Shown here piece after piece: positions 35,941-55,281 of a stretch of 64,000 nt of DNA. Made by a program: the position numbers and the translations under genes. Each line of letters starts with the position of its first letter. Position 1 is the first letter of the stretch. Under the pieces are notes generated by a model. The model was not told where the DNA came from, did not search any database, and saw nothing but the letters and a program-made list of their open reading frames with translations. The DNA is from Burkholderia sp. Bp8992 (GTDB lineage: Bacteria > Pseudomonadota > Gammaproteobacteria > Burkholderiales > Burkholderiaceae): NCBI RefSeq assembly GCF_003853705.1, contig NZ_QTQI01000015.1, positions 1 to 64,000 of the forward strand, read 5' to 3'.

Positions 35941-37158
35941 TCATGGCGAGCGCAACGCCTGCAGCCCCAGCGTGAGCGCGTTGAACGGCATCTCCGCGGC
36001 TCCCAGCGAAAAACTCGTCGTCTTCGTCGTCACGCCCGGCGTGCGCATCAGCGCGTGCACGATCCGCTCGCTCGCGTGACCGTCGCCATACGGATTGCTC
36101 GCGCGCGACATTTCCTCGTAGGCGCTCTCGCTGTCGAACAAGCGCGATGCCTCCCAGATGATCCGTTCCTGGTCGGTGCCGACGAGCCGTGCGGTGCCCG
36201 CCTGGATCGCTTCGGGCCGCTCGGTCGTCTCGCGCGTGACGAGCACCGGCTTGCCGAGCGCCGGCCCTTCTTCCTGGATGCCGCCCGAATCGGTAATGAT
36301 GAAGTGCGCGCGGGACATCAGGAATACGAACGACAGGTATTCCTGCGGCTCGATCAGGTAGATGTTCGGCACACCGCCGAGCCGCGCACGCGCCGGTTCA
36401 CGCACGTTCGGGTTCAGGTGCAGCGGATAGACGAACTGCGCGTCGCGATAGCGGCCCGCGAGCGTACAGAGCGCTTCGCAGAATTGCTTGAACGGTTCGC
36501 CGAAACTCTCGCGGCGATGGCCGGTGATCAGCACGACGCGCCGCGACGGCTCGAGAAACGGGAAAAACGCGGCGACCTTGTCCGACAGCGCGGACGTGCG
36601 CTCCAGCATGCGCTTGACCTCGTGCAACGCATCGATCACGGTATTGCCGGTCAGCGAGACGCCGCTACCCGGCACGCCCTCGCTGAGCAGGTTGTCACGC
36701 GCCTGCCCGGTCGGCGCGAAATGCCACGACGACACCGCGTCGGTCACGCGGCGATTCAGCTCCTCCGGCCACGGCGACCAGATGTCGCCGCTGCGCAGCC
36801 CGGCCTCCACGTGCCCGACCGGCAGATAGCGGTAGAACGCCGCGAGGCTGACCGCGAGCGTGGTCGTCGTATCGCCGTGCACCAGCACGACGTCCGGACG
36901 CAGGTCGTCGAAGACCATGCCGATCGATTGGAGAATGCCGGTCGTCACGTCGGTCAGCGTCTGGCTTTGCCGCATCAGATTGAGATCGTAGTCGGGCTTG
37001 ATGTCGAACAGCGTCAGCACCTGGTCGAGCATTTCACGATGCTGCGCGGTCACGCACACCCGGGCGTCGACATCTGCCTGCGCCTTCAGCGCGCGCACCA
37101 GCGGTGCCATCTTGATGGCCTCCGGCCGAGTCCCGAACACAAGCAAAATCTTCTTCAT
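35941..37158 (-). CDS. wecB: UDP-N-acetylglucosamine 2-epimerase, non-hydrolysing
   Basis: A 405-residue GT-B-fold epimerase that converts UDP-GlcNAc to UDP-ManNAc. [20 protein letters not shown] is the family start; active-site segments are [10 protein letters not shown] (Asp96), GHVEAGLRS (Glu118), WPEELNR (Glu132) and the histidine in [25 protein letters not shown] near residue 290 binds the nucleotide. GAGGATCACG precedes the ATG. No UDP-ManNAc dehydrogenase (wecC) is adjacent. It is divergent from a membrane glycosyltransferase operon, so it probably supplies an amino-sugar nucleotide for that polymer. Confidence 0.93.
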
Positions 37159-38356
37159 CGTGATCCTCGTTTAGCCACTTCGCGCGGATGACCCTGCACG
37201 TGGCGCGAAGCATGTATCCAGGCGGCGCTTCCCGTACTCGCACGCGGTCGGCACGCGACGGTGCCGAGGGGCGAGCGCGCCGTCTTGTCCGTGCGGTCCC
37301 GGCCGCGCGAATCGTCGTACTACCGGCGTCCTGTTGTACTGATCAGTCACGTCATGAGTCGTTCCTCGCTGTGTCGAGCGTCACGCCTGTCCGTCACGTC
37401 GCTTCCACACCAGCAATATTCAAACCAGCCGTACTGCGGCCGGGTCCGGTTCGCGCGACGCGCATCGCACACGCGCGGTGCGTGATGGAATGTTTCACAA
37501 CTGCTACGGGACGTCTCATCTACGGATAGGTACGACAGCGATAAACAGCCGGCCGACCGCGCGATCCGTCTGACGACGTCGTCCGATGAATCGCGAATGC
37601 ATGTCGAACACCCATTGCGCATCGAACCGTCTGCATCTTTCGAAAAGCTTTACGTCGTCTCGATTCAGCACTTTTGTCTGTGCAGCGCCCCGGCGTGCAC
37701 GCGGCCGCCGGCCAAGGTCGCACGCGCACGATTTACCGGACGTGCAGTGTCGCTTGCGTCGCACGAATGGACGCGCGGGAAACGTTGCGAATGTGTAACG
37801 CGGATCCGGCGCAGGCAGATACATCGGAGTCCGGTCCATTCTGTACGGGCGACGGCGATCGCCGTTTCGATCTCCGGGGCAACGCGCGCGCGGCGAACAA
37901 TGCACGACGGTGCCTCTCGCGAAGCCTCCTCGAGCAAGGAGGATGCGACTCGTCAAGCAAACCGCCTGCCGTGCGACGTACGCGGGATGGGCTGCAGACG
38001 ACCTGGGGCCGACCGGCATGTGCCTATGCTGATGCGTCAGTGAATCAAAACACGTCGCCGCGACCGCGACTATGCGCGCACCTCGCGCCCGGCCCCTTGC
38101 TGCACGGGGCATCGTGACTCATGGCTCACGCCTTGCTTAATGTCGGACAGGTGCGTCCCGATGCACTTGCACGGCAGCAGCAGACAGACGGGGACGCCAA
38201 AGCAACGAAGCCGGGAGGCGACGCGACGTGTCCGCCGGGGCGAACGACATCCGCCCTCGCGCGACGAACATGCGGCCGCGACCCATCGACATCCGCGCGA
38301 TCCACGGGCGCCTTCAGCTCTCATCGGTCGTCGTCGCGGACACCGGGGACCAGGAC
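37159..38356. other. 1.2 kb regulatory gap of the polysaccharide locus
   Basis: A long gap between divergent wecB and the glycosyltransferase operon. No frame in it has a ribosome site or a family feature. GC and codon patterns fall in places (37480-37670). Landmarks are the palindromes ACTGATCAGT (37338-37347) and GACGACGTCGTC (37572-37583) and a -24/-12 promoter-like element at 38122. The size fits an enhancer-driven sigma-54 promoter with distant activator sites, but no activator site could be recognised. A small RNA could also be hidden here. Confidence 0.5.
38122..38137 (+). promoter_or_regulatory. sigma-54 (-24/-12) promoter-like element before the glycosyltransferase operon
   Basis: TGGCTCACGCCTTGCT: the GG and GC pairs are ten bases apart as required, the -12 part TTGCT is perfect and the -24 part differs from TGGCACG at two bases. 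Transcription would start near 38148, about 0.2 kb before the operon's first start codon. A second such element precedes the deacetylase gene. Confidence 0.6.
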
Positions 38357-39901
38357 ATGAAGAAAACGCGGATGGCGTCGCTCTGCGAGCAAGGCATTCT
38401 GCTGCTGATCCTGCTTGCCTTCTCGCTGACCGTGCGCGACACCGCATCGCAGGCGATCGCCGAACCGGCGCGGATCACCCTGCCTGCCGCAAACGTCGCA
38501 GTCGCCGTCGAGCGCACGGCCCTCGACAGCGCGCCGTTCGCGATCGCCGTACCGGTGTCGAACGATGCGGACATGTCGATCGAGCCGCCGCCCGCCGGCG
38601 CGCCGCGTTCCACGTTCGACCGCGACCTGCTGCTGATGCCCTGCGTCGCGTACCTGTGGCTGTTCATGCTGTTGACGTGCGTCTACGCCGGACGGCATTA
38701 CGTGTTCAGCCTCGACCGCCTGTTCAAGCCGCAATGCGCGCCCTACCGGACGATCACCCACGGCGAATGGCCGCGGCTCACGGTGTTCGTCGCCGCCCAC
38801 AACGAAGAAGCCGTCGTCGTCGATTGCCTGATGGCGCTGCTGGCGACGACCTACCCGCGCGACAGGCTGACGATCATTCCGGTCAACGACCGCTCGACCG
38901 ACAACACCCGCACGCTGATCGACCAGGTTCATGCACTCGCGCCCGACCTCATCCAGCCGTTTCACCGCGAGACCGGCAAGCCGGGCAAGGCGGCCGCGCT
39001 GAAGGATGCGCTGCGCTTCATCCGCGGCGACATCATGGTGGTGTTCGACGCCGACTACCTGCCGCGCCCGGGGCTGCTGAAGGAACTCGTCGCACCGTTC
39101 TTCGATCCGGAAGTCGGCGCGGTGATGGGCCGCGTCGTGCCGCAGAACGCCGACAGCAACCTGCTCGCGCGGCTGCTCGACCTCGAGCGCGCAGGCGGCT
39201 ACCAGGTCAACCAGCAAGCCCGCAACAACCTCAACCTGGTGCCGCAGTACGGCGGCACGGTCGGTGGTATCCGCAAGAGCGCGCTCGACGCGGTGGGCGG
39301 CTGGCGCGACGACACGCTCGCCGAGGACACCGACATGACCTATCGCCTGCTGCTGAGCGACTGGCGCACGGTCTACCTGAATCACGCCGAATGCTATGAG
39401 GAAGTGCCGGAGCGCTGGGCCGTGCGGGCCCGGCAATTGACGCGCTGGGCGAAAGGACACAACCAGACGCTGCTGCGCTATCTGCTCCCGGTGCTGCGCA
39501 ATCCGCTGATCTCGCGGCGCTGCCGTCTCGACGGCGCGCTGCTGCTCGGCGTGTTCGTGATGCCCGCGCTCCTCGCCGTCGCATGGGGCGCGGCGCTCGC
39601 GCTCTACCTGTTCAACGGCGTCAACTCGACCGCGCTCGGCCTGATCGTGTCGCTGTTCGCGCTGTTTTCGTTCAGCACCTTCGGCAACTTCGGCGTGTTC
39701 TTCGAGATCGTCGTCGCGGCCCGGCTCGACGGCCGCGCGACGCGGCTGCGGCTCGTGCCGGTCAACGTCGTCGGCTTTTGCGTGACGATCGCGGCCGTCG
39801 TCTCCGCGCTATGGGGGCTCACGCTCGACGCCGCATTCCGCCGCGAACTGAAATGGGACAAGACCGAGCGTTTTCGCCGGCAACTGAAACCGGAGCGATG
39901 A
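38357..39901 (+). CDS. membrane glycosyltransferase, GT2 (PgaC/NodC-like polysaccharide synthase)
   Basis: A 514-residue inner-membrane processive synthase. Two N-terminal membrane segments (about 12-27 and 91-111) enclose a periplasmic stretch rich in Ala and Pro. The cytoplasmic GT-A domain has VNDRSTDNT (Asp178), FDADYLPRP (Asp231, Asp233), EDTDMTYR (Glu323, Asp324) and the processivity motif QLTRW (360-364). About three further membrane segments end the protein. The motif order is that of PgaC, NodC and hyaluronan synthases, which polymerise UDP-GlcNAc-type donors and extrude the chain. It heads a four-gene block with gaps of 3 to 13 bases. The donor, perhaps UDP-GlcNAc or UDP-ManNAc, is inferred from wecB and glmS nearby. 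Confidence 0.88.
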   Translation: MKKTRMASLCEQGILLLILLAFSLTVRDTASQAIAEPARITLPAANVAVAVERTALDSAPFAIAVPVSNDADMSIEPPPAGAPRSTFDRDLLLMPCVAYLWLFMLLTCVYAGRHYVFSLDRLFKPQCAPYRTITHGEWPRLTVFVAAHNEEAVVVDCLMALLATTYPRDRLTIIPVNDRSTDNTRTLIDQVHALAPDLIQPFHRETGKPGKAAALKDALRFIRGDIMVVFDADYLPRPGLLKELVAPFFDPEVGAVMGRVVPQNADSNLLARLLDLERAGGYQVNQQARNNLNLVPQYGGTVGGIRKSALDAVGGWRDDTLAEDTDMTYRLLLSDWRTVYLNHAECYEEVPERWAVRARQLTRWAKGHNQTLLRYLLPVLRNPLISRRCRLDGALLLGVFVMPALLAVAWGAALALYLFNGVNSTALGLIVSLFALFSFSTFGNFGVFFEIVVAARLDGRATRLRLVPVNVVGFCVTIAAVVSALWGLTLDAAFRRELKWDKTERFRRQLKPER

Positions 39902-39904
39902 TCG

Positions 39905-40900
39905 ATGACGACCTTCAATGTGATGGTGCCGGTGGCCGGTGTGCTCAGCCTCCCGTTCCTGCCGATGCTGCATGAACTGATCCGGCGCAGCGACGTCGCG
40001 GCGCTGCCGATCGGCGACGGTCCGTTCGTCGATCAGGCATTGCTCGCCACGCGATGGCACGACGCGCTGCGGGCGGACGCGGCCGGCGAACCGCCGGCCG
40101 ATCCGTCCGCCGCACCGCCCTGGCAAACACTCGGGCTGGCCGTACAGCATGCCGACATGATTCACGTTGCACACGACGAGCATCGCGACGACGTGCTCCA
40201 TGCCGATCGCGAGATCACGCTCGACGGCGGCGCCCGCGCGGCGTATGCGTTCGCCGGCGAACGCATCGACATTCACGCGGGAGCGACGATCGGCGCGCTG
40301 GCGCACGCGCCGCAGATCGACGTCGACGGCGCGGTGCTGCGCGGCGTCGTGGTCGGCGGCACGGTGCACCTGCACGGCGCCGGCGGATTCGCGTGCCTGT
40401 ACGGCGAACCGATCGTCTTCGGCGCTGCGCCGGGCACACGCGCCGCCGACATGCCTGCCGCACCGCGCCGCGCGATCTCGCTCACCCGCCACTTCGCGTC
40501 GCTGCCGCATCGCTACCTGCACGGCCGCTACCTGGCGCATTGCGACGTGCGCCTGCCCGCGAACACGGTCGTGCAAGGCAACCTCATCGTCGACGGCACG
40601 CTCGTGCTCGGCGAAGGCTGCGTGCTGCGCGGCAGCGTCAAGGCACATCGCGTCGAGCTCGAACGTCACGCATTACTGCACGGCGCCGTGTTTGCGCGCG
40701 ACGACGTGCTGCTCGCCAATGCGAGCTGCATCGACGGCGTCGTGTCGGCCGGCGGCCTGCTGCGGCTGACCGGTGCGCGCATCGGCGTCGCCGGCCATCC
40801 TGTCAGCGCGTGTGCGCGCGATGTCTCGGTCGTCGGTCATGCATGCGTGCATGGCGACCTCGTCGCGTGGCGCAGCGGCTGGTTCCACGCATCCCGTTAA
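39905..40900 (+). CDS. bactofilin/beta-helix-like polymer-forming protein
   Basis: A 331-residue protein starting three bases after the glycosyltransferase stop. The centre and the C-terminal half are a run of short repeats with turns and small residues: GATIGALAHAPQIDVDGAVL, VVVGGTVHLHGAGGF, VVQGNLIVDGTLVLGEGCVL, RGSVKAHRVELERHALLHGA. These repeats suggest a right-handed beta-helix like bactofilins (DUF583) or left-handed hexapeptide proteins. It has no signal peptide and no clear membrane anchor beyond a mildly hydrophobic start. It may form a cytoplasmic scaffold for the synthase; this is inference. Confidence 0.6.
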   Translation: MTTFNVMVPVAGVLSLPFLPMLHELIRRSDVAALPIGDGPFVDQALLATRWHDALRADAAGEPPADPSAAPPWQTLGLAVQHADMIHVAHDEHRDDVLHADREITLDGGARAAYAFAGERIDIHAGATIGALAHAPQIDVDGAVLRGVVVGGTVHLHGAGGFACLYGEPIVFGAAPGTRAADMPAAPRRAISLTRHFASLPHRYLHGRYLAHCDVRLPANTVVQGNLIVDGTLVLGEGCVLRGSVKAHRVELERHALLHGAVFARDDVLLANASCIDGVVSAGGLLRLTGARIGVAGHPVSACARDVSVVGHACVHGDLVAWRSGWFHASR

Positions 40901-40910
40901 GGAGCGCCCC

Positions 40911-41924
40911 ATGTCCGATCGCCCCTGCCATCGCGGCCCGCGCGTGCCGGTTGCCACCCTCGCGGTGCTGTGCGGCGTCGCCTTTGGTACGCCATCGGTG
41001 CTGGCGGCACTGCCGGACGACAGCGCCGCCGCGCCGCCCGTGCAGCCACCCGACGTCCCGACCGTCATCACGCCACGGCCGCGCGACGAATCCACGTTCG
41101 TGCGCGTCAGTGCCGACGGCCTGCCGGACGGCGTGTCGCTCGCCGAGTTCACGCCTGACGATACGAACCGACCGCCGCTGCCCGATGCAATCGTCACACA
41201 TGTCCAGGCACCCCAAGAAAAGCACGCCGAACTGTCGCTCGGCTATTCGAGCGCGCATCTGACACACGGCTACGGCGACTGGTACGGCGTGCATCTACGC
41301 GGTGTCTACCAGGATGGCGGACGCACCGTGCTCGGCGAACTCGCGCAACTGCACCGCTTCGGCGAGAACACGCAGCTCGGCTCGCTGACCTACGTGCAGG
41401 ATATCGGCCCCGACTGGTTCGGCGGAATCGGCTTTGCCGGCACTACGTCGGGGACGATCCTGCCGAGCGCACGCGTCGACCTGTCGATCAATCGCAAGCT
41501 ATTGCCGGATCGTTCGCTGGTCGTGTCGCTGGGCGCCGGCCACGCATGGAACCGCAGCGGCCATCGCGACCAGCTCTATCACGCCGGCGTGATCTGGTAC
41601 GCGCTGCCGAAATGGATCTTCGAGGCGGGCACGAACTACACGGTCGATTCGCCCGGATCGGTGAAGGCGCCCGCCTATTACGGCGCCGTCACCTACGGCG
41701 AAGTCGGCAAGAGCGTGATCGTGCTGCGCGGGGGGTTCGGCCGCGAGGCCTACCAGGTCACCGGCTCCGGCTCGCAGATCGCGGATTTCCGCAGCCACGA
41801 GATCGACGCGAAATGGCGCTACTGGTTCACGCGCAAGTGGGGAACGCAGCTCGAGTTCGACTACTACCACAACCCGTACTACTCACGGATCGGCGGCGAG
41901 CTGAGCGTGTTCTATCGCTGGTAG
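40911..41924 (+). CDS. YaiO-family outer-membrane beta-barrel protein
   Basis: A 337-residue exported protein. After a signal peptide (VATLAVLCGVAFGTPSVLAA) and a proline-rich periplasmic linker (about 40-100), the sequence EKHAELSLGYSSAHLTHGYG begins a barrel of alternating strands, with DWYGVHLRGVYQDGGRTVLG and ending GGELSVFYRW with an aromatic terminus. This matches the YaiO outer-membrane domain, which is found with exopolysaccharide synthases in Bacteroidetes and proteobacteria. AAGGAG precedes the ATG. The barrel may export the polymer or hold it at the surface. Confidence 0.75.
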   Translation: MSDRPCHRGPRVPVATLAVLCGVAFGTPSVLAALPDDSAAAPPVQPPDVPTVITPRPRDESTFVRVSADGLPDGVSLAEFTPDDTNRPPLPDAIVTHVQAPQEKHAELSLGYSSAHLTHGYGDWYGVHLRGVYQDGGRTVLGELAQLHRFGENTQLGSLTYVQDIGPDWFGGIGFAGTTSGTILPSARVDLSINRKLLPDRSLVVSLGAGHAWNRSGHRDQLYHAGVIWYALPKWIFEAGTNYTVDSPGSVKAPAYYGAVTYGEVGKSVIVLRGGFGREAYQVTGSGSQIADFRSHEIDAKWRYWFTRKWGTQLEFDYYHNPYYSRIGGELSVFYRW

Positions 41925-41937
41925 CCGGGCGGGCGCC

Positions 41938-42708
41938 ATGCAGACGCATCCCGTCCGTCCTCCCGCCGACCGTTCGCTGCGGATTCATGCCCATCCGCAG
42001 CGCTGGCTGTCGTCGATCGCACTGCTGACGCCTGCGCTGTATGCATCGCTGTGGGTCGGCTTGCCGATCGCCTGGCGCTACTGGCGCGCGGTGATGGTCT
42101 GGGGCGCATACCAGATCGATCCGGCGCTGCACGTGATCGTGATCGGCTATCCGCCCGATGCGCCGCGCGTACCGCTGCTGTCGATCGACGTCGCCGCGCG
42201 CATGCCGGGCGACGTGCTGCTGGCCCTCACCGCGGCGCTCTGCGCGATCGGCTTCGGCGCGTCCTTCATACAACACCGGAACTGGCTGCCCGTTGCATAT
42301 CTGTTACGTATCGCGAGCTTCACCCAGCTACTGATTTGCGTGTATTTCTGGCTCGCGCCCGGCACGTTTCCGTATGTCCCGTTGCTGCATCTGCGCGACA
42401 TGTTCGTGCTGCTCGGTGCGGCGATCGCGATGATCCCGCTGGTGATGGCGGCGTTGTACTACCCGCTCGATTTCTCGCTGCTGCAGAAGGCATTCGCGTC
42501 GGCACTGGTGCTCGGCTACTTCATCTTCGCGCTGCCGTTCGTGATGCTGCTGCACGCGATGATCATCCATCACGGCACGCTGCTGTTCCTGCCGTTCTGC
42601 TATTTCCTGCTCGGCGGACCGCTGCTGATCGGCTTGCTGGTCACGCTCTACACCTACTGCGCGAGCTGGCCCGGCGCGCTGACGCGCGACACCGATTCCG
42701 TCTGCTGA
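41938..42708 (+). CDS. polytopic inner-membrane protein of unknown function
   Basis: A 256-residue protein with about six membrane segments, starting 13 bases behind the YaiO gene. Hydrophobic runs include WLSSIALLTPALYASLWVGL, MFVLLGAAIAMIPLVMAAL and ALVLGYFIFALPFVMLLHAM. No family is recognised. The position, as last gene of the synthase block, suggests an accessory subunit of the glycosyltransferase (as PgaD is for PgaC) or a chain-modifying membrane protein. It is followed by a 335-base gap. Confidence 0.6.
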   Translation: MQTHPVRPPADRSLRIHAHPQRWLSSIALLTPALYASLWVGLPIAWRYWRAVMVWGAYQIDPALHVIVIGYPPDAPRVPLLSIDVAARMPGDVLLALTAALCAIGFGASFIQHRNWLPVAYLLRIASFTQLLICVYFWLAPGTFPYVPLLHLRDMFVLLGAAIAMIPLVMAALYYPLDFSLLQKAFASALVLGYFIFALPFVMLLHAMIIHHGTLLFLPFCYFLLGGPLLIGLLVTLYTYCASWPGALTRDTDSVC

Positions 42709-42818
42709 TTTCGCACGCAAACGTGCCGTATCAGCGATGAAACGAATCCATTGCGTTTGCTGCCGCGCCGCGCGACTCGCGTTACATGAAGCCAGCAGGT
42801 CCGGGCCTCCGGCGCAAA

Positions 42819-42834
42819 TGGCACGTTGTTCGCT
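42819..42834 (+). promoter_or_regulatory. sigma-54 (-24/-12) promoter-like element before the deacetylase gene
   Basis: TGGCACGTTGTTCGCT: the -24 part TGGCACG is perfect, GG and GC are ten bases apart, and the -12 part is TCGCT instead of TTGCT. It sits in the 335-base gap between the two blocks of the polysaccharide locus and would start transcription near 42845, about 0.2 kb before the deacetylase gene. The rest of the gap shows no gene. Confidence 0.6.
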
Positions 42835-43043
42835 TCACTCAATGCGTCGCATCGAGTCCTTTCGTCAACGACGACAGCGCGACGTACCGACGTATCCCGT
42901 TGGTCCGGCTGGCGCCGACAGGTGCCGCTCGATGCCCGACGCACCGGACAGCCGCACACACCTGCGGGGCAGGATTGGTCGACCTGGCGGCACGCGCATC
43001 ACGGCTGCCGCACGCCCCCCATTCCTTGAGCGAGGAGTACACC

Positions 43044-45194
43044 ATGTTGGCAAAGTCAGGCAAGTTCTTGCGGATCCTGTTCGCGTTGCTCGCGCTCGCG
43101 TTCGCATTCAGTCCGGGCGGCGTTCGGGCGGCCACCAACCAGCTCATCCTGCTGGTGCCGAACACGCTGACGTTGCCCGATCCGCGCGTGTCCGCATGGC
43201 TCGACACCGCACAAGAGGAAGGACTGCAGATCACGGTGATGACCGACAGCCAGTTCATGGCGGCCGGCGCGTCGCTGTCGCAGTATCCCGGCCTGATCCT
43301 GCCCGATCAGGTGCATACGACGGCCGACGACACGCTCGTCACGGCGATCCAGAACTATGCGCTCAACGGCGGCAAGGTGATGCTCGTCTACGATTTCGGC
43401 GTGCTGAATTCCGCCGGCTTCTACGTGAGCCCGAAATCGCGCTTCAGCAGCATGGTGGGCGTCGACTATGTGTTGTATGACCAATACGGCGGCAACATGA
43501 TCGGCCTCGGCAACGTGACCGGCATGAGCAGCTGGCTGCGCACGCTCCAGGTGCCTCCCGGCAAGTCGATGGCGTGGACCACGACGGCTTCGGCCACGAC
43601 GACCGCCAGCGTCATGGCCGCGGCGACCACCGGCAACGCGAAGACGAGCAACGCGCCGAAGCAGACCACCGGTAGCGCGCTCTATCTGTCCGGCAGTCCG
43701 TCGAACCCCGGCGGCCTCGCCAACTACAACCACGGCGCATGGTTCCAGTACGACACGCCTCCTGCAGGCAGCGGCCTGCTGAACCAGACGGCGCCGAAGC
43801 TGACCGGCGTCGCGAACGGCAAGCAGGTGAAGTCCGGCACGTATAGCGCCAACTCGCTCGTCAGCACCACGACCGGCAAGGCGGCAACCGCGCTCGCCTC
43901 CACGATGGCGACGACCACCGACACGCTCGAAGGCATCTCCGGCTATGTGTACGGATTCCTGACCTATCCGAGTTTCGTCACGCAGGGGACCTACACCGGC
44001 ACGACGATCCTGACCTCGCCGACGTTCGGGCTGGTGTCCGGCTACAACACATATGGCAACGGCGGCGTCCTGTTCGTCAACCTGCCGCTCGCCTACCTCG
44101 ACGGCCAGACCGACGGCATGCTGATCCACGGCTACCTGCACTATTTCGGCACGCAGATGCTGAACCTGCCGTCGCTGTCGCCGCTGCCGAAGGCGATGGC
44201 CGGGCTGGTGTTCAACTGGCATTTCTGCGCGGGCGACCAGATCCAGCCGGCGCTCCAGTTGAAGAACCTCGGCGTGTGGAACAATGGGCCCTTCTCGCTG
44301 GTAATCACGGCCGGCCCCGATGAAGCGACGTTCGGCGACGGCAACGGCATCAACCTCGCCAACAACCCGACCGCGCAGAATCTCGTCAAGTATCTCGTGA
44401 GCAAGGGTCAGCACGTCGGCAGCCACGGCGGCTGGATTCACGACTACTGGGGAGCCAATGCCAGCGAAACGAACGCGAGCACGTTCACGCAGTACCTGGT
44501 GATGAACCATCAGGCCGTCCAGGCAGCGACGGGCCAACCGGACGTCGAGTACGCGGCACCGGAAGGCAACACGCCGACCTGGTCGGTCAACTGGCTCGAA
44601 AGCAACGGCTTCAACGGCTATTACTTCACCGGTCACACCGGCTCGGCGCCGACCCGCGCATACCGCAACGGCGCGCTGCTGAACCCGGGCCTGTGGGCTT
44701 ACCCGGTGATGCCGTTCGGCAAGTACGCGACGTTCGAAGAGTTCCAGCAATACGCGGTGCCGACGTCCGACGTGAACAACTGGTATGCAGCCCTGATGAA
44801 CTTCGTCGTCGCGAACCGCACCAGCCGGCTGATCTATGCACACCCGCTCGGCGCGTCGTCCTACACGTCGACGTTGAACGCGATCTTCTCGCAAGCGAAT
44901 ACGCTGAAGCTGCTCGGTCAGTTCAAGTGGTACACGATGAGCGACATCACGATCTTCGATCGTGCACGCCTGAACGTCACATGGTCGGCCACCGACACGG
45001 GCAGCAGCTGGTCATTCGCCGCCAGCCACCCGACGAGCCTTGCGAACATGACCTGGTTGCTGCCGAAGAAGGCCTACGCACTGCCGGTCATCACGCAAGG
45101 CCTTGGCAGCGTCGTCATCACCGACTCGATGTACTGGCTCGTGACCGCGAACAGCGGCACCAGCATCAAGTTCACCAGCGCCAAGGTGCACTGA
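43044..45194 (+). CDS. large exported, divergent polysaccharide deacetylase-like protein
   Basis: A 716-residue exported protein. After the signal peptide (FLRILFALLALAFAFSPGGV, cut near RAA) an amidotransferase-like domain (about 32-165, LILLVPNTLTLPDPRV, YPGLILPDQVHT, YALNGGKVMLVYDFG) is followed by a Thr/Ala/Ser-rich insert (170-300). The C-terminal domain has spaced motifs like those of NodB/PelA/Agd3 deacetylases: NWHFCAGDQ (391-399), SHGGWIHDYW (460-469, His461 and His466), YAAPEGNTP (503-511) and YAHPLG (598-603). GAGGAG precedes the ATG. It probably removes acetyl groups from an amino-sugar polymer in the periplasm. The assignment is by motif spacing only; Agd3-like fungal enzymes share the same two-domain layout. 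Confidence 0.65.
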   Translation: MLAKSGKFLRILFALLALAFAFSPGGVRAATNQLILLVPNTLTLPDPRVSAWLDTAQEEGLQITVMTDSQFMAAGASLSQYPGLILPDQVHTTADDTLVTAIQNYALNGGKVMLVYDFGVLNSAGFYVSPKSRFSSMVGVDYVLYDQYGGNMIGLGNVTGMSSWLRTLQVPPGKSMAWTTTASATTTASVMAAATTGNAKTSNAPKQTTGSALYLSGSPSNPGGLANYNHGAWFQYDTPPAGSGLLNQTAPKLTGVANGKQVKSGTYSANSLVSTTTGKAATALASTMATTTDTLEGISGYVYGFLTYPSFVTQGTYTGTTILTSPTFGLVSGYNTYGNGGVLFVNLPLAYLDGQTDGMLIHGYLHYFGTQMLNLPSLSPLPKAMAGLVFNWHFCAGDQIQPALQLKNLGVWNNGPFSLVITAGPDEATFGDGNGINLANNPTAQNLVKYLVSKGQHVGSHGGWIHDYWGANASETNASTFTQYLVMNHQAVQAATGQPDVEYAAPEGNTPTWSVNWLESNGFNGYYFTGHTGSAPTRAYRNGALLNPGLWAYPVMPFGKYATFEEFQQYAVPTSDVNNWYAALMNFVVANRTSRLIYAHPLGASSYTSTLNAIFSQANTLKLLGQFKWYTMSDITIFDRARLNVTWSATDTGSSWSFAASHPTSLANMTWLLPKKAYALPVITQGLGSVVITDSMYWLVTANSGTSIKFTSAKVH

Positions 45195-45285
45195 GCCGCA
45201 ACTCGACCCACCCGCCGGCGCGCGACGCGGCCAACGTCGCGCCCGGCGGCATTTGCGCAGGACCACCGCGCAGGAGCCCCCGATC

Positions 45286-46374
45286 ATGAACCGGCCCGCG
45301 CTGTTCCCGGCCGCACGCGCACGCGTGGCGGCCACCGCCCGGCTATGCCGCCTGTGGCGCGTTGCCTGCTGTGTGTCGGCATTCGGCTTCGCGCTGCACG
45401 CAGGCGCCGCCGAGCTCCAGCTCAACGGACTCTACCAGCGCCCCGACGGCGCGATCACCGTGCGCCTGAATGGCGCCGGCATCGATCCGTATTTCGCGGC
45501 GAAGGCGCTGCTCGCCGCCGCCGACGCCGGGCTCGACACCCACCAGGCCGCACTCGCGTGGATCGCGTGGCTGTTGCCGCGCCAGCGCCCCGACGGCGGC
45601 TTCGATCGCTACTGCTTGAAGAGCGGCCAGTACAGCGCCTGCGCGGAAGCCGACGCCGACGACGCGATGATGGCCACCTGGATCGAACTGCTCTCCCGCT
45701 TCGCGCCGCCCGACGGCATGCCCGCCGCGTGGGAACTCAGCCTGAACCGCGCGGGTGCGCATCTGGACACGCTGCTCAGCAAGCCCACCGGCGTCTATCA
45801 GATCTCGTCCACGCTGCACGTCGCGCTGCTGATGGACAACGTCGAGGTCCACAGCGCGTTCCAGGCGCTCGCCGCGTACTACGTCCGGCATGCCGACAAC
45901 ACACACGCGAGCCCGTGGCGCCAGCGCGCCGACCGGCTCTCGTCCGCGATCCTGAAGGTGTTCTGGCGCGGCACGCAATCCGGCTTTCGCGCGAGCACGC
46001 AGCGCATCAGCGACACGACCTTCTATCCGGCGAAAGTCGCGCAGATCTTCCCGCTCCTGTCGGGGATTCAGGTTCCCGATCAATCGAACGAGGCGATCTA
46101 CGCGCAGTGGATGCAGAAATACGGCAAGACCTGGCTGCAACTGGCCGGCAGCGATTATCCATGGGGCTTGATTGCGCTGGTCGCATTCAAGATGAATGAC
46201 TGGAACACGGTCGCCTGCTGGCATGCGCGATCGGGCCCGTACCGGCATGGTGCGCACTGGAACGTACTGGAGGAATCGCTTTATCTCGCATTCGAAAGCA
46301 GGATGGCCGACCCCGTCGCGCCCGCTCAGTGCGGCTTCACGACGGCCGAGGCAACGGAGACTGCGGCGCGCTGA
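45286..46374 (+). CDS. exported helical-toroid protein, possible glycoside hydrolase
   Basis: A 362-residue protein with signal peptide (LWRVACCVSAFGFALHAGAA). The mature part is a series of paired helices with acidic turns: LLPRQRPDGGFDRYC, EADADDAMMATWIELLSRF, VYQISSTLHVALLMDNVEVH and NEAIYAQWMQKYGKTWLQLA. The DADDAMMATWIELL segment recalls the DAD-type motif of GH8 enzymes such as BcsZ, which clip the product of exopolysaccharide synthases. A general acid is not certain, so enzyme activity is inference. It sits between the deacetylase and glmS genes. CAGGAG is just before the ATG at 45286. Confidence 0.5.
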   Translation: MNRPALFPAARARVAATARLCRLWRVACCVSAFGFALHAGAAELQLNGLYQRPDGAITVRLNGAGIDPYFAAKALLAAADAGLDTHQAALAWIAWLLPRQRPDGGFDRYCLKSGQYSACAEADADDAMMATWIELLSRFAPPDGMPAAWELSLNRAGAHLDTLLSKPTGVYQISSTLHVALLMDNVEVHSAFQALAAYYVRHADNTHASPWRQRADRLSSAILKVFWRGTQSGFRASTQRISDTTFYPAKVAQIFPLLSGIQVPDQSNEAIYAQWMQKYGKTWLQLAGSDYPWGLIALVAFKMNDWNTVACWHARSGPYRHGAHWNVLEESLYLAFESRMADPVAPAQCGFTTAEATETAAR

Positions 46375-46422
46375 CACGGCGTGCATGCGCTCCGGCAAAA
46401 TCGACAGGGAAGGAGACGTGTC

Positions 46423-48240
46423 ATGTGTGGCATCGTCGGCGCGGTCGCGCAACGGGACATCGTCCCGATTCTGATTGAAGGTTTGCGCCGCCTGGAATAT
46501 CGCGGCTACGATTCATGCGGGGTCGCGACGGTCGTCGACGGCCAGGCGCGCCGGGAGCGCAGCATGTCGCGCGTCGCCGATCTCGACGCCCACGTGCGCA
46601 GCGCCGGCCTGACCGGCAGCACCGGCATCGCTCACACGCGCTGGGCGACCCATGGCGCGCCGGCAACCTGCAACGCACACCCGATCTTCTCTCGCGACGA
46701 GATCGCGCTCGTGCACAACGGCATCATCGAGAACCACGAAACGTTGCGCAAGCAACTGTCCGACGAGCACTACGAATTCGACGGCCAGACCGACACCGAA
46801 GTCGTCGCTCACCTGATCCACAGCAAGTATCGCGGCGACCTCCTCGCCGCCGTGCGCGATGCGACGTCGCAGCTTCACGGTGCTTACGCGATCGCGGTGT
46901 TCAGCAAACACGAGCCGCAGCGGCTGATCGGTGCGCGGGCCGGCTCGCCGCTCGTCGTCGGCTTGAAGGACGGCGAATGCTTTCTCGCGTCCGACGCGCT
47001 CGCGCTGGCCGGCATTACCGACCGCTTCATCTTTCTCGAGGAAGGCGACATCGTCGAGTTGACGCCCGGCAGCGTGCGGGTGCTCGATCGCACCGGTGCA
47101 CCGATCGAACGCGCGATCCAGACCGTTTCATCCGCGCAGGGTGTGGTCGAGCTCGGGCCGTACCGGCACTTCATGCAGAAGGAAATTTTCGAGCAGCCGC
47201 AGGCCGTGGCCGCGACCATCCCGGACGCGGGGCTGTTCGATCCGGCCGTATTCGGCCCGGATGCCGCGCGGGCATTCGACCAGATCGACAACGTGCTGAT
47301 TCTCGCGTGCGGCACGAGCCATTATTCCGGCCTGACCGCGCGCCGCTGGCTCGAAACGATCGCGCGCATCCCCGCGCAGGTCGAGATCGCGAGCGAATAC
47401 CGTTACAGCGATGCGCTCTCGATGCCGAACACGCTGGTGGTCAGCGTGTCGCAATCCGGCGAGACCGCCGACACGCTCGCCGCGCTCAAGTACGCGCAGG
47501 CGCTCGGCCATATCGACACGCTGGCGATCTGCAACGTGCCGACCAGCGCGATGATGCGCCAGACCGGCCTGCGCTTCCTGACGCGGGCAGGCCCGGAAAT
47601 CGGCGTTGCGTCGACCAAGGCGTTCACGACGCAGCTCGTCGCGCTGTTCATTCTTGCCGTCACGCTCGGACGGCTGCGCGGCTACGTCGACGACGCGCAA
47701 CTCGCGCGCTACACGATGCAGCTGCGGCGATTGCCTGGCGCGCTCGAGGACGTGCTCGGGCTGGAACCGCAGATCGAGCGCTGGGCGGCGGAATTCGCTC
47801 AGCACGAAAACGCGCTGTTTCTGGGGCGCGGGCTGCACTACCCGATCGCGCTCGAAGGTGCGCTGAAGCTGAAGGAGATTTCGTATATCCACGCGGAAGC
47901 GTATCCGGCCGGTGAGCTGAAACACGGGCCGCTCGCGCTCGTGACGCACACGATGCCGGTCGCGACAATCGCACCGAACGACGCGCTGCTGGAGAAGCTC
48001 AAGTCGAACATGCAGGAAGTGCGGGCGCGTGGCGGGCAGCTTTACGTGTTCGCCGATGCCGATACGCGGATCGACAACGGCGAAGGCGTGTCGGTATTGC
48101 GGATGCCGGATTACTACGGGCTGTTGTCGCCGATTCTGCACGTCGTGCCGTTGCAATTGCTCGCGTATCACGCGGCGTGCCTGCGCGGCGCGGATATCGA
48201 CAAGCCGAGGAATCTGGCGAAATCGGTGACGGTGGAGTAA
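46423..48240 (+). CDS. glmS: glutamine-fructose-6-phosphate aminotransferase, probably a locus-specific copy
   Basis: A 605-residue GlmS. The mature N-terminal Cys2 ([10 protein letters not shown]) is the glutaminase nucleophile; the Ntn domain has [20 protein letters not shown] and [15 protein letters not shown]. Two SIS domains follow ([56 protein letters not shown]) and the end is LAKSVTVE. It makes glucosamine-6-phosphate, the entry to UDP-GlcNAc. Burkholderia chromosomes carry a housekeeping glmS near glmU; no cell-wall genes are here, so this is taken as an extra copy serving the polymer. GAAGGAG precedes the ATG. Confidence 0.93.
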
Positions 48241-48286
48241 AGGGCCAACAGGGCGTCGGACTCGACTGCGGATACCCGACGGGATC

Positions 48287-49216
48287 CTATTTTGCCGCGA
48301 CCTTCGCCTTGGTTGGCTGTTCGACCGGAACATCAAGCGGGAGTGGCTTGGCAAGAACGCCGGAGATGATCCCGTTGATGGTTTCGTTCGTGCTGGCCCC
48401 AATGTTGTTGTAGACACCAACCACACGCGGCTCGACGTGGGTTTTGGACGTGTCGTATAGCTTGGCTTTCATTGTGCCGAGCGCCTGGATCGCACTTTGA
48501 ATCGAGGCGAGACTAATATCGGATGGAATGGGCAATGCGGTAGAGATGTTCTCTCCGGTCAGGCCAAGTGTCTGCACCACGAGCGTTCCAGACAATTGGC
48601 TAGCTTGCGCGGCAGCGCCGATCGCGATCAGGTTGCCAAGGTTGACCCCCGCTTTCGTGGTATTGAGCGTCGCCGTTACGCGCAATCCCACACCGATATA
48701 GACAGGCACGGCGAGGTCGGCGAGCTTTCCATCGCTAACGAAGGTGGCACGAAATGATCCGTCTGAACGTGCGTCGGTTTTCTTTACGAACAGCGGATAG
48801 GTATTGGATTTTATGTAGTCGACCGTGACAACATATCTACCATTCTCGACACTCATGCTAACGGGGCCGTAAGTGACATTTCCATTGGTATCGATTTGTC
48901 CAATGGCGAGCCGCATCGTTTCGTCAGGCAGTGCATTCAGAATGTCTTCTGGCTTGGCAGTCTTCCCGCCGATGGGCCTGACCGCCACGGGAGCCGGATC
49001 AAGAGGCTGATATCCAGAGGGTGGAGATAGCTTGCTTGCGTCGAAGTCGGCTGCGGCGCCTGCAGATGAAGCCGAATTTCGTGGATTGCCGTCGGAACCG
49101 GGGGACGGCTGCGGCCTGACGATAAACGAGGAAGCACAGCCCGACAGAAACACCACTGCAGATACGGCAATAGCAAGTGATGTGCTCGAGCATCCCCTCT
49201 TGATATTGATATTCAT
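48287..49216 (-). CDS. lipoprotein of unknown function
   Basis: A 309-residue lipoprotein with lipobox LSGC (LAIAVSAVVFLSGC). A Pro/Ser-rich linker (30-75) leads to a domain with VTYGPVSMSVENGRYVVTVD, PVYIGVGLRVTATLNTTKAG and ISTALPIPSDISLASIQSAI. No family is recognised. Codon use is visibly less GC-rich than that of the genes on its left, which marks the beginning of the accessory segment. It converges on glmS. An envelope role is all that can be said. Confidence 0.7.
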   Translation of the reverse strand: MNINIKRGCSSTSLAIAVSAVVFLSGCASSFIVRPQPSPGSDGNPRNSASSAGAAADFDASKLSPPSGYQPLDPAPVAVRPIGGKTAKPEDILNALPDETMRLAIGQIDTNGNVTYGPVSMSVENGRYVVTVDYIKSNTYPLFVKKTDARSDGSFRATFVSDGKLADLAVPVYIGVGLRVTATLNTTKAGVNLGNLIAIGAAAQASQLSGTLVVQTLGLTGENISTALPIPSDISLASIQSAIQALGTMKAKLYDTSKTHVEPRVVGVYNNIGASTNETINGIISGVLAKPLPLDVPVEQPTKAKVAAK

Positions 49217-50027
49217 TATTTTCCCCGTGCGGTGCCATGCCTGGACTAATCGCTAGATCTCCGGAACCGAGACTACACGTCGCGCGAATGCTGCGCAATA
49301 AGTCAAATCAATAAGAAACCGTCACAAACCAACACCTGAATTAATCTGATGAAACGACACCGGACGCGCAGCACTCGCGCTTGGAATTCCGCAATACCTT
49401 CTGCCGTTCAATGCACGATCGTGCGTAATGTCCGCACTGGGCTCATTGAGCACGCAGTTTGACCAGAGTGTCGCCGACCCATCGTTTACCGGGCGGTATA
49501 CGCAGGATCGGTGACAGCCGTACGCCGTGCAGTAGCGGTTGAACGAATTCCCGTTCGAATCGGTGCCGGATACCGATCAATTTCCGTTTCAGAAATTCTG
49601 AACGGCTTTGTTCCAGTTCTGATCATTCGCAGCCGTGCTATTGATCGTCGTCGTGTCGCCACGCGTGCTCGCCGTCTCACGCCACGAACTGCCCGTCTAC
49701 ATTGCAACCGCTCACGGTCGTCAAACCGCCCAACCTGTCGCGGCGATATGAGTCACCGCTGCGGTTCACGCATGTTTGCCAACCCGGACAGCCGATGCAG
49801 TTCGCATATGCCGCACAAGATGTCGCGAGAGCAACGCCAAGCATTACGGCCCTGGTTGCCTTTTCACAGCCGTCTCCCCATCAATGGGTAAGAAAAAGAC
49901 CGTGAGAATTCCAAATGAATTCAGACTCCAGCTTGGATGGCGTGATCATTTTATGGATAATCGGCGTGATCTAACGCACGACGTCTTGCACAAACGCCAT
50001 TGACCGCTCTCACCGTCGATCTTCGGA
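49217..50027. other. gene-poor stretch in the accessory region
   Basis: About 0.8 kb with no convincing gene. On the minus strand a frame ending at a TGA (49589-49591) reads SSWRETASTRGDTTINSTAA, then NDQNWNKAVQNF, which resembles the end of a secreted protein; it is cut by a stop about 35 codons upstream and has no start, so it may be a decayed fragment. Base composition is lower in GC than the flanking core DNA. The left end (49217-49330) probably holds the promoter of the lipoprotein gene. Confidence 0.4.
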
Positions 50028-50696
50028 ATGACTCATCAAATGCAAAGTACGACAGCCCCGTCAGTTTTTCGGACACTGCTGAATCGAACCCGAAGCTGGC
50101 TACGGCATCACACCCGCGACTTCAGACGCTCGGACTTCTTGCCTCGTTGCGCTCTGAAGCAAGCCGCCATTGTTCTCGCAGCCTGGACGCTACCAGCCGT
50201 AACCGGAGTTGTCTTAACTAACTGGCTCGGCAGCCGTCGATCAGTCAAATATCTACAGACGGCAATCCACGAAGGCATTGGGCCACATATCTGGAATGTC
50301 TTTGCGGTGCTTGGGATGATCCTTGTCGGCCTGCTGATTGCGCTCCCTCGTCAGAGGTGGCTCGCGATCGCCGCATATCAGGTGCTACAAAATACCTACG
50401 CACTCGGTGCGTTGATGCTCGGGCTTCTTCTCGGCCAGTGGATTTGCTTCGCTGCCCCTCAGGATGCCAGCACGCTGCACACCTATCTGCGTGTGACGAT
50501 ATCAGGCCTAATGTTCGCGATGGCATTCTGCTTGAATTTCTTGATCTGGTACACATCCTTTCTCATATCGCCGGTTCGCCTGAACACCGGCTTCATGCGC
50601 GCAACAGTGCGGCTCGCTCCACAGTTCCGCTTGCCAATGGCGGCGGCGATCGTAGCCAGCGCACTTGTTTCGCTCTATGTCTACCTGGATGAGTAA
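50028..50696 (+). CDS. small polytopic membrane protein of unknown function
   Basis: A 222-residue protein with four likely membrane segments: QAAIVLAAWTLPAVTGVVLT, WNVFAVLGMILVGLLIALP, YALGALMLGLLLGQWICFAA and VTISGLMFAMAFCLNFLIWY, plus a C-terminal AAAIVASALVSLYVYL. The N-terminus is basic and cytoplasmic. No family is recognised. It lies alone in the accessory segment. Confidence 0.65.
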   Translation: MTHQMQSTTAPSVFRTLLNRTRSWLRHHTRDFRRSDFLPRCALKQAAIVLAAWTLPAVTGVVLTNWLGSRRSVKYLQTAIHEGIGPHIWNVFAVLGMILVGLLIALPRQRWLAIAAYQVLQNTYALGALMLGLLLGQWICFAAPQDASTLHTYLRVTISGLMFAMAFCLNFLIWYTSFLISPVRLNTGFMRATVRLAPQFRLPMAAAIVASALVSLYVYLDE

Positions 50697-50855
50697 ACGC
50701 GCTCCTGTCGCCCTCCGAACCCTGTGCCTCCGCCCGTTTTCCTGAATCGCGTGGACCCACATACGGCGGTTCAGCAAGTCAACTTGCCGCTCGATTCAGC
50801 GGGTTTGGGCGACGCAGTTTCTCTGGGTTTAGAGATGCGCTCGCCATTTGCCTCG

Positions 50856-51227
50856 TCAGCAAGCAAAGAGGTACTTTGCAATAAGCAGCGGAGTTGATGC
50901 GGATCGAGTCGCTTGTGGCGCGCGCGGGCCTGTTGACGGCATCTGATTTGCGCGCTCGAGCGGCCGGGCGCCTGGCAGCTCGTTCATCGACGGATGCCCG
51001 TCATCCTGCTCAAAGGGCGCGGCAGCGCCCACCCCTTCGAGCGCCTTCGCAGGTGTTTCAGCGCCCGTCGAGGGCCCCTCGCGTCCCGCCCGGGCAATTG
51101 CTCGCTGGCGCTCCCGTAGAAGTCGATCGAGGGCGTCCGCGGCCTTCGCGTCGAGAGAACGTGCCTGCGCTCGACTGCTCGACGCACGATGACGAAGTCG
51201 TCGCACTACATCGTCGATGTCATCCAT
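50856..51227 (-). CDS. small hypothetical protein
   Basis: A 123-residue frame starting MDDIDDVVRRLRHRASSSRA, then QARSLDAKAADALDRLLRER, a basic, helical, probably soluble start followed by a disordered Pro/Gly-rich end. AGGGGCGAAGG precedes the ATG at 51227; the frame runs further upstream without a better start. It is 79 bases behind the next small gene on the same strand. The family is unknown; it may be a DNA-binding or structural protein of a mobile element. Gene reality is moderately supported. Confidence 0.45.
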   Translation of the reverse strand: MDDIDDVVRRLRHRASSSRAQARSLDAKAADALDRLLRERQRAIARAGREGPSTGAETPAKALEGVGAAAPFEQDDGHPSMNELPGARPLERANQMPSTGPRAPQATRSASTPLLIAKYLFAC

Positions 51228-51306
51228 CCTTCGCCCCTTGCTCCCCGGATTGCGCGCCGCCGCCCACACCGGCCGATCGCTCAAGCACGGCACGGCTCGT
51301 CGCAGG

Positions 51307-51582
51307 TCACGGCCCGAAGCAGCGCTGCGACTTCGCGCCCACCTCCCCAACCAGCATTGAAACCAGCGGCCGGTATTCGTCGCCGCAGTCCTCTGCAAGC
51401 CTGATCAGCTCCTCGAGCTGTTGCGCGCGCCGTGCCGCGAAATCGCGCATGTCGGTGTTCTCGTGCACGGTGGTCACCGTCACGGTACCGTCGCCGGCCG
51501 ATTCAATATAGGCGGACGTCAAGTGACGATTCCCCTGGTCCGACGCCGCTTGCGCATTTTCAGACCAAGCTTCATTTCTCAT
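51307..51582 (-). CDS. small hypothetical protein
   Basis: A 91-residue acidic protein: HLTSAYIESAGDGTVTVTTV, then DMRDFAARRAQQLEELIRLA and EDCGDEYRPLVSMLVGEVGA. The beta-strand start followed by a long helix looks protein-like and codon use is normal. It is divergent from the nuclease-fusion gene at 51607 with only 24 bases between, so the two may share a control region. The family is unknown. The ribosome site is weak. Confidence 0.5.
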   Translation of the reverse strand: MRNEAWSENAQAASDQGNRHLTSAYIESAGDGTVTVTTVHENTDMRDFAARRAQQLEELIRLAEDCGDEYRPLVSMLVGEVGAKSQRCFGP

Positions 51583-51606
51583 CCGTAAGGTACGTTTTCG
51601 GCAATA

Positions 51607-53493: not shown

Positions 53494-53659
53494 AGTTTGC
53501 CCCCAGTGAAGGCAAGAAATTTAGTGGCTGAAGGGAGCAACAACGCGATCGTCGCGCGGACGACGATCGCGCCTCTCGCTGCCTATGTATCGTGCCACGC
53601 CGTCAACGCAGCGCATCGATCCATTGGAGCTCAAGTCACAGCGATAGCTGGTTTAGCGA

Positions 53660-53872
53660 TCAACGTAATTTTTTGAATGCATCCTTGAACATTCGGCCGA
53701 CCTCCTTCTTCGCTTGATCAACTGCGACTCGCTTGAGTTCTCCATACGTACCCGCAGATGTTCCGCATCCAGAACATGAGATTTCAAGCCCATCTGTAGC
53801 GTCGTCCGGCCAAGCAAGTCGCGTGCCGCACTTCTTGCATTCAAAAGAGACGGAAATATGATCGTTAGCCAT
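53660..53872 (-). CDS. small zinc-ribbon protein
   Basis: A 70-residue protein with two CxxC pairs: Cys12-Cys15 in FECKKCGTRLAWPDD and Cys33-Cys36 in ISCSGCGTSAG, then a charged helix (VDQAKKEVGRMFKDAFKKLR). The four cysteines would bind one zinc ion. Similar small ribbons are common in prophages and mobile islands, where the partner is often a phage or defence protein. It is convergent with the nuclease-fusion gene. Confidence 0.75.
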   Translation of the reverse strand: MANDHISVSFECKKCGTRLAWPDDATDGLEISCSGCGTSAGTYGELKRVAVDQAKKEVGRMFKDAFKKLR

Positions 53873-54132
53873 GAAGTAACACGGAAGGTGTGGAAATTAT
53901 TGGAATAGGCACATAGCCACTCAAACACTCCATCTGCCTTTTCCAAGTACTGTGAACACTACGTAGCCCGCGACCCGTTGTCAAAAACTCCAGCACGGAC
54001 TACTCGTTTTCGCGGATATGAATAGCTCGTCGCCAAGGTATTATCCGCCTAACAAATAAGCGGGCGGATCCAGTGCTGTCAAGGTGCGCGACGGAAGCAT
54101 CGATAGTGCAGCCCGACAACGGGGACCTACAC

Positions 54133-55143: not shown

Positions 55144-55171
55144 TTTGACGAAGCTGGTACATCGCGATTGA
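54995..55171 (+). CDS. small gene overlapping the protease gene in another frame
   Basis: An ATG at 54995 with a very good ribosome site (GAAGGAGAGACAG) opens a 58-codon frame in the +1 frame relative to the protease gene: MRTYQTPRPVREAMAQASLK, TAQVASKLNSFARSQTSSTP, then PIPDLTKLVHRD. It overlaps the protease gene by 149 bases and ends just before the terminator. The strong start and sensible sequence favour a real protein; if so, the protease tail in this stretch may be the derived frame. Family unknown. Confidence 0.55.
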   Translation: MRTYQTPRPVREAMAQASLKTAQVASKLNSFARSQTSSTPQNRPAAPIPDLTKLVHRD

Positions 55172-55188
55172 AATATCGCAATCGGCAA

Positions 55189-55218
55189 AAGCCTCGCAAA
55201 TGCGGGGCTTTGTTTTTT
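55189..55218 (+). terminator. intrinsic terminator of the protease unit
   Basis: AAGCCTCGC and GCGGGGCTT pair (one G-T) around AAAT, followed by TGTTTTTT. It is 18 bases behind the small overlapping gene and closes the accessory transcription unit before the tRNA gene. Confidence 0.9.
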
Positions 55219-55281
55219 GGTGCATCGTTGTGAGCGACCGTAACCCCGGCGTAACCCCGGAACGTCTCGAAGTGCTCAAAC

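Follow-up and report, generated by a model that had tools for sequence, protein, structure and literature searches.

Related Systems and the Burkholderia Locus

Synthase-dependent exopolysaccharides fall into five types in one account, which describes a periplasmic TPR (tetratricopeptide repeat) domain coupled to the pore (PMC7112194). A comparable arrangement is known from Escherichia coli, where NfrB, NfrA and YbcH act together with WecB (the N4 glycan receptor, NGR). The NfrB product depends on WecB, not on WecA (PMC8669472), and does not require WecC (PMC8669469). NfrB has been proposed to use UDP-N-acetylmannosamine (UDP-ManNAc), and a ManNAc polymer has been proposed as its product (PMC8669472, PMC8669469). 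Here, we describe a locus at positions 35941–48240 of a 64,000-nucleotide stretch of Burkholderia sp. Bp8992 (contig NZ_QTQI01000015.1; the whole stretch is called the window), in which wecB accompanies a processive glycosyltransferase of family GT2, a beta-helix protein, a YaiO-family barrel, a polytopic membrane protein (MEMB), a deacetylase-like protein (DEAC), a putative polymer-cleaving enzyme (TOR) and an extra glmS. On balance, and with modest confidence, we favor the reading that this locus functions in the manner of a self-contained synthase-dependent exopolysaccharide system and draws on UDP-ManNAc, along the lines proposed for NfrB-NfrA-WecB.

The locus shares an inner-membrane processive GT2 and an outer-membrane barrel with the NfrBA system, and its linkage to wecB parallels the WecB dependence of NfrB, which is independent of the remaining enterobacterial common antigen pathway (PMC8669472, PMC8669469). 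The two differ in that TPRs are part of NfrA and an MshEN domain is part of NfrB (PMC8669472, PMC8669469), neither of which was found in the families of the locus. The E. coli proteins NfrA and YbcH did not match the family profiles of the locus, which adds the beta-helix protein, MEMB, TOR and DEAC. With pgaABCD and icaADBC, the likeness lies in a GT2 synthase of the same broad group, a NodB-like deacetylase and an outer-membrane barrel. However, the synthase scores far below the PgaC cut-off, and wecB is an addition. E. coli PgaA, PgaB and PgaD matched no window protein and gave no hit with any of six family profiles, in agreement with the initial annotation, which had noted the lack of pgaA and pgaB. 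The lay-out of DEAC, with an N-terminal part, a NodB-like center and a C-terminal part, is comparable to that in the Pel and Agd3/galactosaminogalactan systems (CE21 and CE18 deacetylases), although its second motif is HGGWxH, not HxxxH as in those enzymes. Bacterial homologs of Agd3, with Burkholderia among the genera, are reported to lie often in uncharacterised polysaccharide operons, described with GH114 and Pel-like outer-membrane genes (PMC7229062). Since such genes are not among the families that recur here, those operons are probably other loci.

No description of this gene set was found in openly licensed PubMed Central text, with subscription papers outside that scope, and the initial proposal of an exopolysaccharide locus that is uncharacterised and has an unusual set of genes was upheld: all eight genes are present and seven of their families recur. 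Among the matches listed for the name YaiO, none concerned this locus, judged by title and the start of the abstract. Clusters with wecB and a deacetylase in Rubrivivax (PMC3684757) and Janthinobacterium (PMC5080296) were considered and set aside; as far as they are described in the text consulted, they are Wza-type or EpsH-type, without this gene set. The Bcam1330-1341 cluster appears in a Burkholderia polysaccharide paper (PMC3584217).

Co-Conservation and Distribution of the Gene Set

The genes of the locus recur together. A scan of 84,980 species genomes, which selects for two synthase peptides, yielded 216 relatives. The best 80 of these, two more and the window gave 83 loci, in which all open reading frames (ORFs) were clustered. 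These loci are not independent, as they include the window, 15 from Burkholderia or Paraburkholderia and many from Polaromonas. The synthase was present in all 83, YaiO in 75, MEMB in 74, WecB in 73, the beta-helix protein in 69, TOR in 63 (with a second TOR group in 7) and DEAC in 50. Beyond these seven families, the next occurred in 17 loci, and the others scanned were regulators, dehydrogenases, a bactofilin, or without a match. A locus was treated as complete if its sequence extended 7 kb or more before the synthase and 7.5 kb or more beyond it (n = 62, tblastn hits added). YaiO and MEMB were found in all 62, WecB and the beta-helix protein in 61 each, TOR in 54 and DEAC in 40. The initial annotation hinged on the genes being co-conserved, and they are: all seven families occur in 36 of the complete loci, and DEAC alone is absent from another 17. 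Gene order is shuffled among loci while content is kept.

The hosts include Burkholderia, Paraburkholderia, Polaromonas, Ralstonia, Cupriavidus, Collimonas, Acidovorax, Curvibacter, Duganella, Undibacterium, Chromobacterium, Aquitalea, Sphaerotilus and others. Single metagenome-assembled genomes (MAGs) labelled Ectothiorhodospiraceae, Acidobacteriota and Eisenbacteria also carry the locus and may be misbinned. The distribution is sporadic: 8 of 399 genomes sampled across the order carry the locus, and of 398 sampled across the phylum four do, all of that same order. In a separate search of 81 genomes, orthologous synthases (at least 79% identity) were found in 18 of 49 Burkholderia genomes, and distant ones (52–54%) in two of the 32 genomes outside the genus. 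The same neighbors accompanied all 18, except in G044, which lacks DEAC and the adjacent glmS. The host of the window is close to the cepacia complex; the best relatives of its synthase come from a Burkholderia MAG (95%), B. seminalis (94%) and Burkholderia sp. BCC1644 (94%).

Each of the eight genes is open at the positions given below, with wecB on the minus strand, divergent from the operon, and the other seven on the plus strand. The likely true starts of the GT2, YaiO, DEAC, TOR and glmS genes were judged from signal sequences and motifs. The six operon genes from GT2 to TOR are under purifying selection, with median pairwise ratios of nonsynonymous to synonymous substitution (dN/dS) of 0.19–0.29. 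The locus is more than a chance assembly: its genes recur together, 12 relatives lack five of them en bloc, and the six operon genes are under purifying selection. Rfam models at the gathering threshold matched nothing in 34000–56000 except a tRNA at 55285.

The Synthase

The GT2 gene (38357–39901, ORF opening at 38228) encodes a protein of 514 residues from the likely start, which matched Glyco_tranf_2_3 (1.6e-32). Pfam GT2 domains were found in 28 of 28 family members, and the DAD motif, the ED of the TED/AED motif and QxxRW were invariant in the alignments. Hydrophobic segments flank the catalytic domain on both sides, which places the synthase in the inner membrane by hydropathy.

The PgaC_IcaA profile gave the window synthase 124.5 bits against a cut-off of 422, and the protein is thus a relative of PgaC, not PgaC itself. 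Searched against E. coli proteins, the family profile matched PgaC (1.7e-38), then BcsA (3.3e-20) and YaiP (1.6e-13), while NfrB stayed short of significance, at E = 0.11 for the family profile and E = 0.028 for the first alignment. All 20 sampled members formed one clade (support 0.90) that excluded E. coli PgaC, NfrB, YaiP and BcsA. Orthology to any of these four was rejected on the profile scores and the tree, and the initial annotation, which a pga or cellulose synthase ortholog with its usual partners would have refuted, stands. No PilZ or MshEN domain, which would bind c-di-GMP, was matched in any of the 28 members (Pfam, E up to 0.001). Near 17 of the 83 loci there is a linked family with a GGDEF-EAL protein as its scanned member, and near 15 a family with Crp-type regulators; none of these loci is from Burkholderia.

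WecB and the Sugar Donor

The wecB gene (35941–37158) encodes a non-hydrolysing UDP-N-acetylglucosamine (UDP-GlcNAc) 2-epimerase with a TIGR00236 score of 499.7 bits (cut-off 210). Of the catalytic residues checked, D95, E117, E131, H213 and E296 (E. coli numbering) are kept in 73 of 73 cluster WecBs, as is K15. This lysine is named in PMC8669472. In the tree of cluster WecBs, 24 fall on one side and 49 on the other together with E. coli WecB (support 0.99), and within the 49-member side a group of 13, mainly from Polaromonas, stands apart (support 1.0). The gene also sits at differing positions, divergent from the operon, upstream of it or within it. The cluster WecBs are therefore not one inherited gene, and the wecB genes linked to the synthase stem from at least two epimerase lineages. 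In the 49 Burkholderia genomes, wecB lay beside 18 of 18 orthologous synthases vs. one of 48 other GT2 hits (in G031) within 10 kb, a control counted by hand.

By the same argument as for NfrB, the association with wecB, together with the lack of any E. coli WecC match in the 83 loci, suggests UDP-ManNAc as the donor. It is a strong but indirect pointer to ManNAc in the polymer, and while the initial annotation held that no polymer could be named, it allows a more specific guess. The synthase could instead make a poly-GlcNAc resembling poly-N-acetylglucosamine, with WecB only branching off UDP-ManNAc for another glycan or balancing the pool. PgaC/IcaA is indeed the best of the known synthase relatives by profile, glmS supplies UDP-GlcNAc in Burkholderia, and the NodB-like protein recalls PgaB or IcaB. 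We nevertheless consider poly-GlcNAc unlikely, as WecB is found in nearly every complete locus and comes from separate lineages, whereas glmS is found in only 14 of the 83 loci. The distance of the synthase from the PgaC cut-off and the unmatched PgaA, PgaB and PgaD also speak against it.

The YaiO Barrel, MEMB and the Beta-Helix Protein

The YaiO-family protein (40911–41924, ORF opening at 40773) matched PF19413 (1.8e-34) and TIGR04390 (2.5e-58). PF19413 was found in 34 of 34 family members and no further Pfam family in any (E up to 0.001). This outer-membrane beta-barrel is the putative export pore for the polymer. Within the same limits, TPR domains were matched in none of the 34 YaiO members and in none of the other scanned families, although a divergent or distantly encoded TPR is possible. 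Given this result, the locus would work like the synthase-dependent systems without being a canonical member of them. The family matches for wecB, GT2, the YaiO barrel and glmS are firm, as initially assigned.

MEMB (41938–42708) shows several hydrophobic segments in the hydropathy plot, in agreement with the earlier description as a polytopic membrane protein, and none of 36 family members matched a Pfam family. Co-occurrence ties it to the synthase: all 18 synthase-positive Burkholderia genomes have it, and none of the 31 synthase-negative ones does. Outside the genus, it was found in five of six synthase-positive genomes and was absent from G127, where the synthase and wecB lie near a contig end. 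The beta-helix protein (39905–40900) could be specified further as bactofilin-like (30.7 bits, cut-off 27.9). PF04519 was matched in 35 of 36 members scanned, the window included. YaiO, DEAC and the beta-helix protein each show hydrophobic sequence at the N-terminus.

A bactofilin-like protein suggests a localized structure, and the product might be a ManNAc-containing glycan of the cell envelope (a short surface glycan, sheath or coat) and not a released biofilm exopolysaccharide. A Sphaerotilus genome carries the locus (L103), and the NGR of E. coli is described as a phage receptor. The architecture of a YaiO barrel with a processive GT2 fits an exported polymer, however, and we regard an envelope glycan as improbable. 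In the text consulted of a Sphaerotilus-Leptothrix paper, the sheath-formation genes are called not well understood and this locus is not named (PMC13386937); that text offers no argument for or against a sheath role.

Alternatively, the locus might be a version of the yaiS-yaiP-yaiX-yaiO operon of E. coli with the same job. That stretch resembles the locus in miniature, with a deacetylase, a GT2, the putative acyltransferase YaiX and a YaiO barrel side by side (K-12, L034 3570-8001), and in a small tree YaiP comes closest to the family among the outside synthases tested, on a long branch. Yet YaiP is only 27% identical to the synthase across 212 residues, does not group within the family clade and has lower scores than PgaC and BcsA. 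No meaningful match came from the YaiO of E. coli or from the fragments of yaiX, which is annotated as a pseudogene split by IS2, and neither wecB nor another polysaccharide gene is annotated in that K-12 stretch. This makes a yai variant very unlikely. A polymer of uronic-acid or sialic-acid-like sugars, made by oxidizing or rebuilding UDP-ManNAc further, is highly improbable: WecB products commonly feed WecC or sialic-acid routes, but E. coli WecC had no match across the 83 loci, though such enzymes could lie elsewhere in the genome, and the families beyond the seven, none in more than 17 loci, offered no candidate among those scanned.

The Deacetylase-Like Protein

DEAC (43044–45194, ORF opening at 42786) is exported and carries its NodB-like domain between N-terminal and C-terminal parts. 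The window copy falls below the Polysacc_deac_1 cut-off (20.9 bits vs. 23.1), while 24 of 40 aligned members match this family (E up to 0.001; best 4.5e-8). The N-terminal part gave a sub-threshold match to GH42M, a GATase-like domain family. The recurrent motifs are NWHxD/C, HGGWxH, SAPxGNxPxW and HPPG, and the first two stand in place of the canonical CE4/NodB motifs (TFDD-type and HxxxH), which were looked for and not found; the link to that superfamily is a distant match. The motif-1 position holds Asp in 33 of the 40 and Cys in five from Burkholderia, the window among them, and two from Paraburkholderia; both of the latter also carry Gln at the first His of motif 2. Profile searches of solved structures with DEAC and TOR returned nothing convincing, and with DEAC neither Agd3 nor PelA at E up to 1. 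Three loci (L089, L096 and L103) carry two DEAC homologs each, one in the operon and one downstream.

TOR and glmS

TOR (45286–46374, ORF opening at 45253) is probably exported, with an N-terminus that is signal-like by hydropathy yet below the threshold used. The "alpha-toroid" of its first description finds weak support in a single MGH1-like match below threshold (19 bits, cut-off 27). Its invariant acidic residues are D123, D125, D126, D184 and E187. Other exopolysaccharide systems have periplasmic hydrolases, and TOR is the best candidate for a polymer-cleaving enzyme here by analogy with these, not by homology; homology to a known hydrolase was considered and not established. TOR is kept in ten Burkholderia genomes without the operon (L120-L128 and L131), free of internal stops and under purifying selection. 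Its median dN/dS was 0.22 within six such genomes vs. 0.15 in ten related synthase-positive ones, and wecB and glmS shift in the same direction. Selection on TOR is perhaps somewhat relaxed where the synthase is missing.

The glmS gene (46423–48240, ORF opening at 46381) is full length and would serve precursor supply. It is an extra copy, as each of the 12 genomes searched gave 2–4 matches to glmS. It was rejected as a core part on its count among the 83 loci, mainly in Burkholderia, and on its staying with wecB in 12 of 12 operon-less genomes. The gene belongs to the locus in Burkholderia, as initially listed, and not to the conserved system. A further glmS adjoins a different GT2, about 30% identical to the synthase, at G001:C1:48242-51878 and likewise in G025:C2, possibly another polysaccharide locus of the genus. 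At G044:C6:127663-132104, a glmS (91%) lies beside a second wecB (67%), in the genome whose operon is without glmS.

Probable Loss or Exchange of the Operon Block

Twelve operon-less genomes, of 19 with a wecB ortholog, were examined. The GT2, beta-helix, YaiO, MEMB and DEAC genes were missing from the locus in all 12, while wecB and glmS were kept in all and TOR in 10. In seven of them the upstream match stops at 38248–38324 of the window and resumes at 45127–45157, which puts the break immediately ahead of the GT2 start and ahead of TOR. In an eighth, L128, the breaks are at 38165 and 45133. Parts of the long intergenic stretch between wecB and the operon (37159–38356) were recognisable in 10 of the 12. 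In a tree of wecB plus glmS, the operon-less genomes are scattered over several branches, with some nodes weak (39–79). This suggests repeated loss or exchange of the block through its flanks, with recombination also possible.

Two of these genomes (L126 and L127) carry a piece matching the 5' region of glmS (window about 46316–46483) upstream of TOR, possibly a scar of TOR-glmS joining or insertion. Directly 3' of glmS, about 7 kb (48245–55280) has a GC content of 0.55–0.58, compared with about 0.67, and ends at a tRNA-Arg gene (55282–55358, minus strand). In the synthase-negative L122 and L125, the glmS end and window 55259–55280 lie within 50 bases of each other, and in L121, L123 and L131, other DNA takes up 2.7–5.8 kb at that place, with about 2.7 kb in L123. 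Four proteins of the stretch were scanned: one resembles a ClpP-like SDH-type protease below the cut-off, and three had no Pfam match. The stretch looks like a genomic island beside the tRNA.

Proposed Mechanism

In the proposed mechanism, WecB would convert UDP-GlcNAc to UDP-ManNAc, and in Burkholderia glmS would add to the amino-sugar pool. The membrane GT2, probably partnered by MEMB, would polymerise N-acetylmannosamine, alone or with GlcNAc, and push the chain to the periplasm. There DEAC, where present and active, may strip some acetyl groups and TOR may trim or clear the chain. The YaiO barrel would be the way out, and the bactofilin-like protein probably scaffolds or positions the synthase. 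The exported polymer may serve in biofilms or at the cell surface.

Several observations weigh against this reading. A WecB ortholog at 83% identity or more is present in 19 of 31 synthase-negative Burkholderia genomes (the G009 copy is interrupted), and the idea that WecB is exclusive to the system was rejected on this count. One of the 62 complete loci, L113, is without WecB. A WecB neighbor is also no proof of a UDP-ManNAc donor, as WecB is reversible. In one published description a TPR domain accompanies the pore, and none was found here. TOR survives under selection in genomes that have no synthase and may have a second or other role, and the case for an enzyme is made by conserved acidic residues and a single sub-threshold match. 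As for DEAC, it is absent from 22 of 62 complete loci, one of 18 Burkholderia copies (L025) has an internal stop, and the motif-1 Asp is replaced by Cys in 18 of 18 Burkholderia copies. Because this Cys is kept in all 18 and the median dN/dS is 0.22, the replacement is not simple decay; it could reflect an altered metal site or a changed function. Deacetylase activity in Burkholderia is uncertain. The initial annotation had proposed a partly deacetylated N-acetyl-amino-sugar polymer. With the Cys at motif 1 and about a third of complete loci lacking DEAC, "partly deacetylated" is unsecured in this organism.

A more specific version of the UDP-ManNAc-fed system is put forward tentatively, as a doubtful one. 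It would be a separate secretion class that makes poly-N-acetylmannosamine, partly polymannosamine where DEAC is active, in which a bactofilin-like beta-helix filament replaces the TPR scaffold as organiser of the synthase and the block has repeatedly been lost or exchanged between Burkholderia species. The novelty of the locus is the combination and its unassigned parts, not a demonstrated new principle.

Implications

A conserved, patchy set of seven families for a polymer that is named in none of the papers found would add a type to the five synthase-dependent exopolysaccharides of the account cited above (PMC7112194). If the UDP-ManNAc-fed reading is true, the locus would join NfrBA as the second gene system that points to ManNAc polymers, with export and modification parts unlike those of NfrBA. 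MEMB and TOR, both families without usable annotation, gain a testable context, and the bactofilin-like protein gains a possible role in polysaccharide secretion. The Burkholderia relatives with and without the block form natural pairs for matrix analysis.

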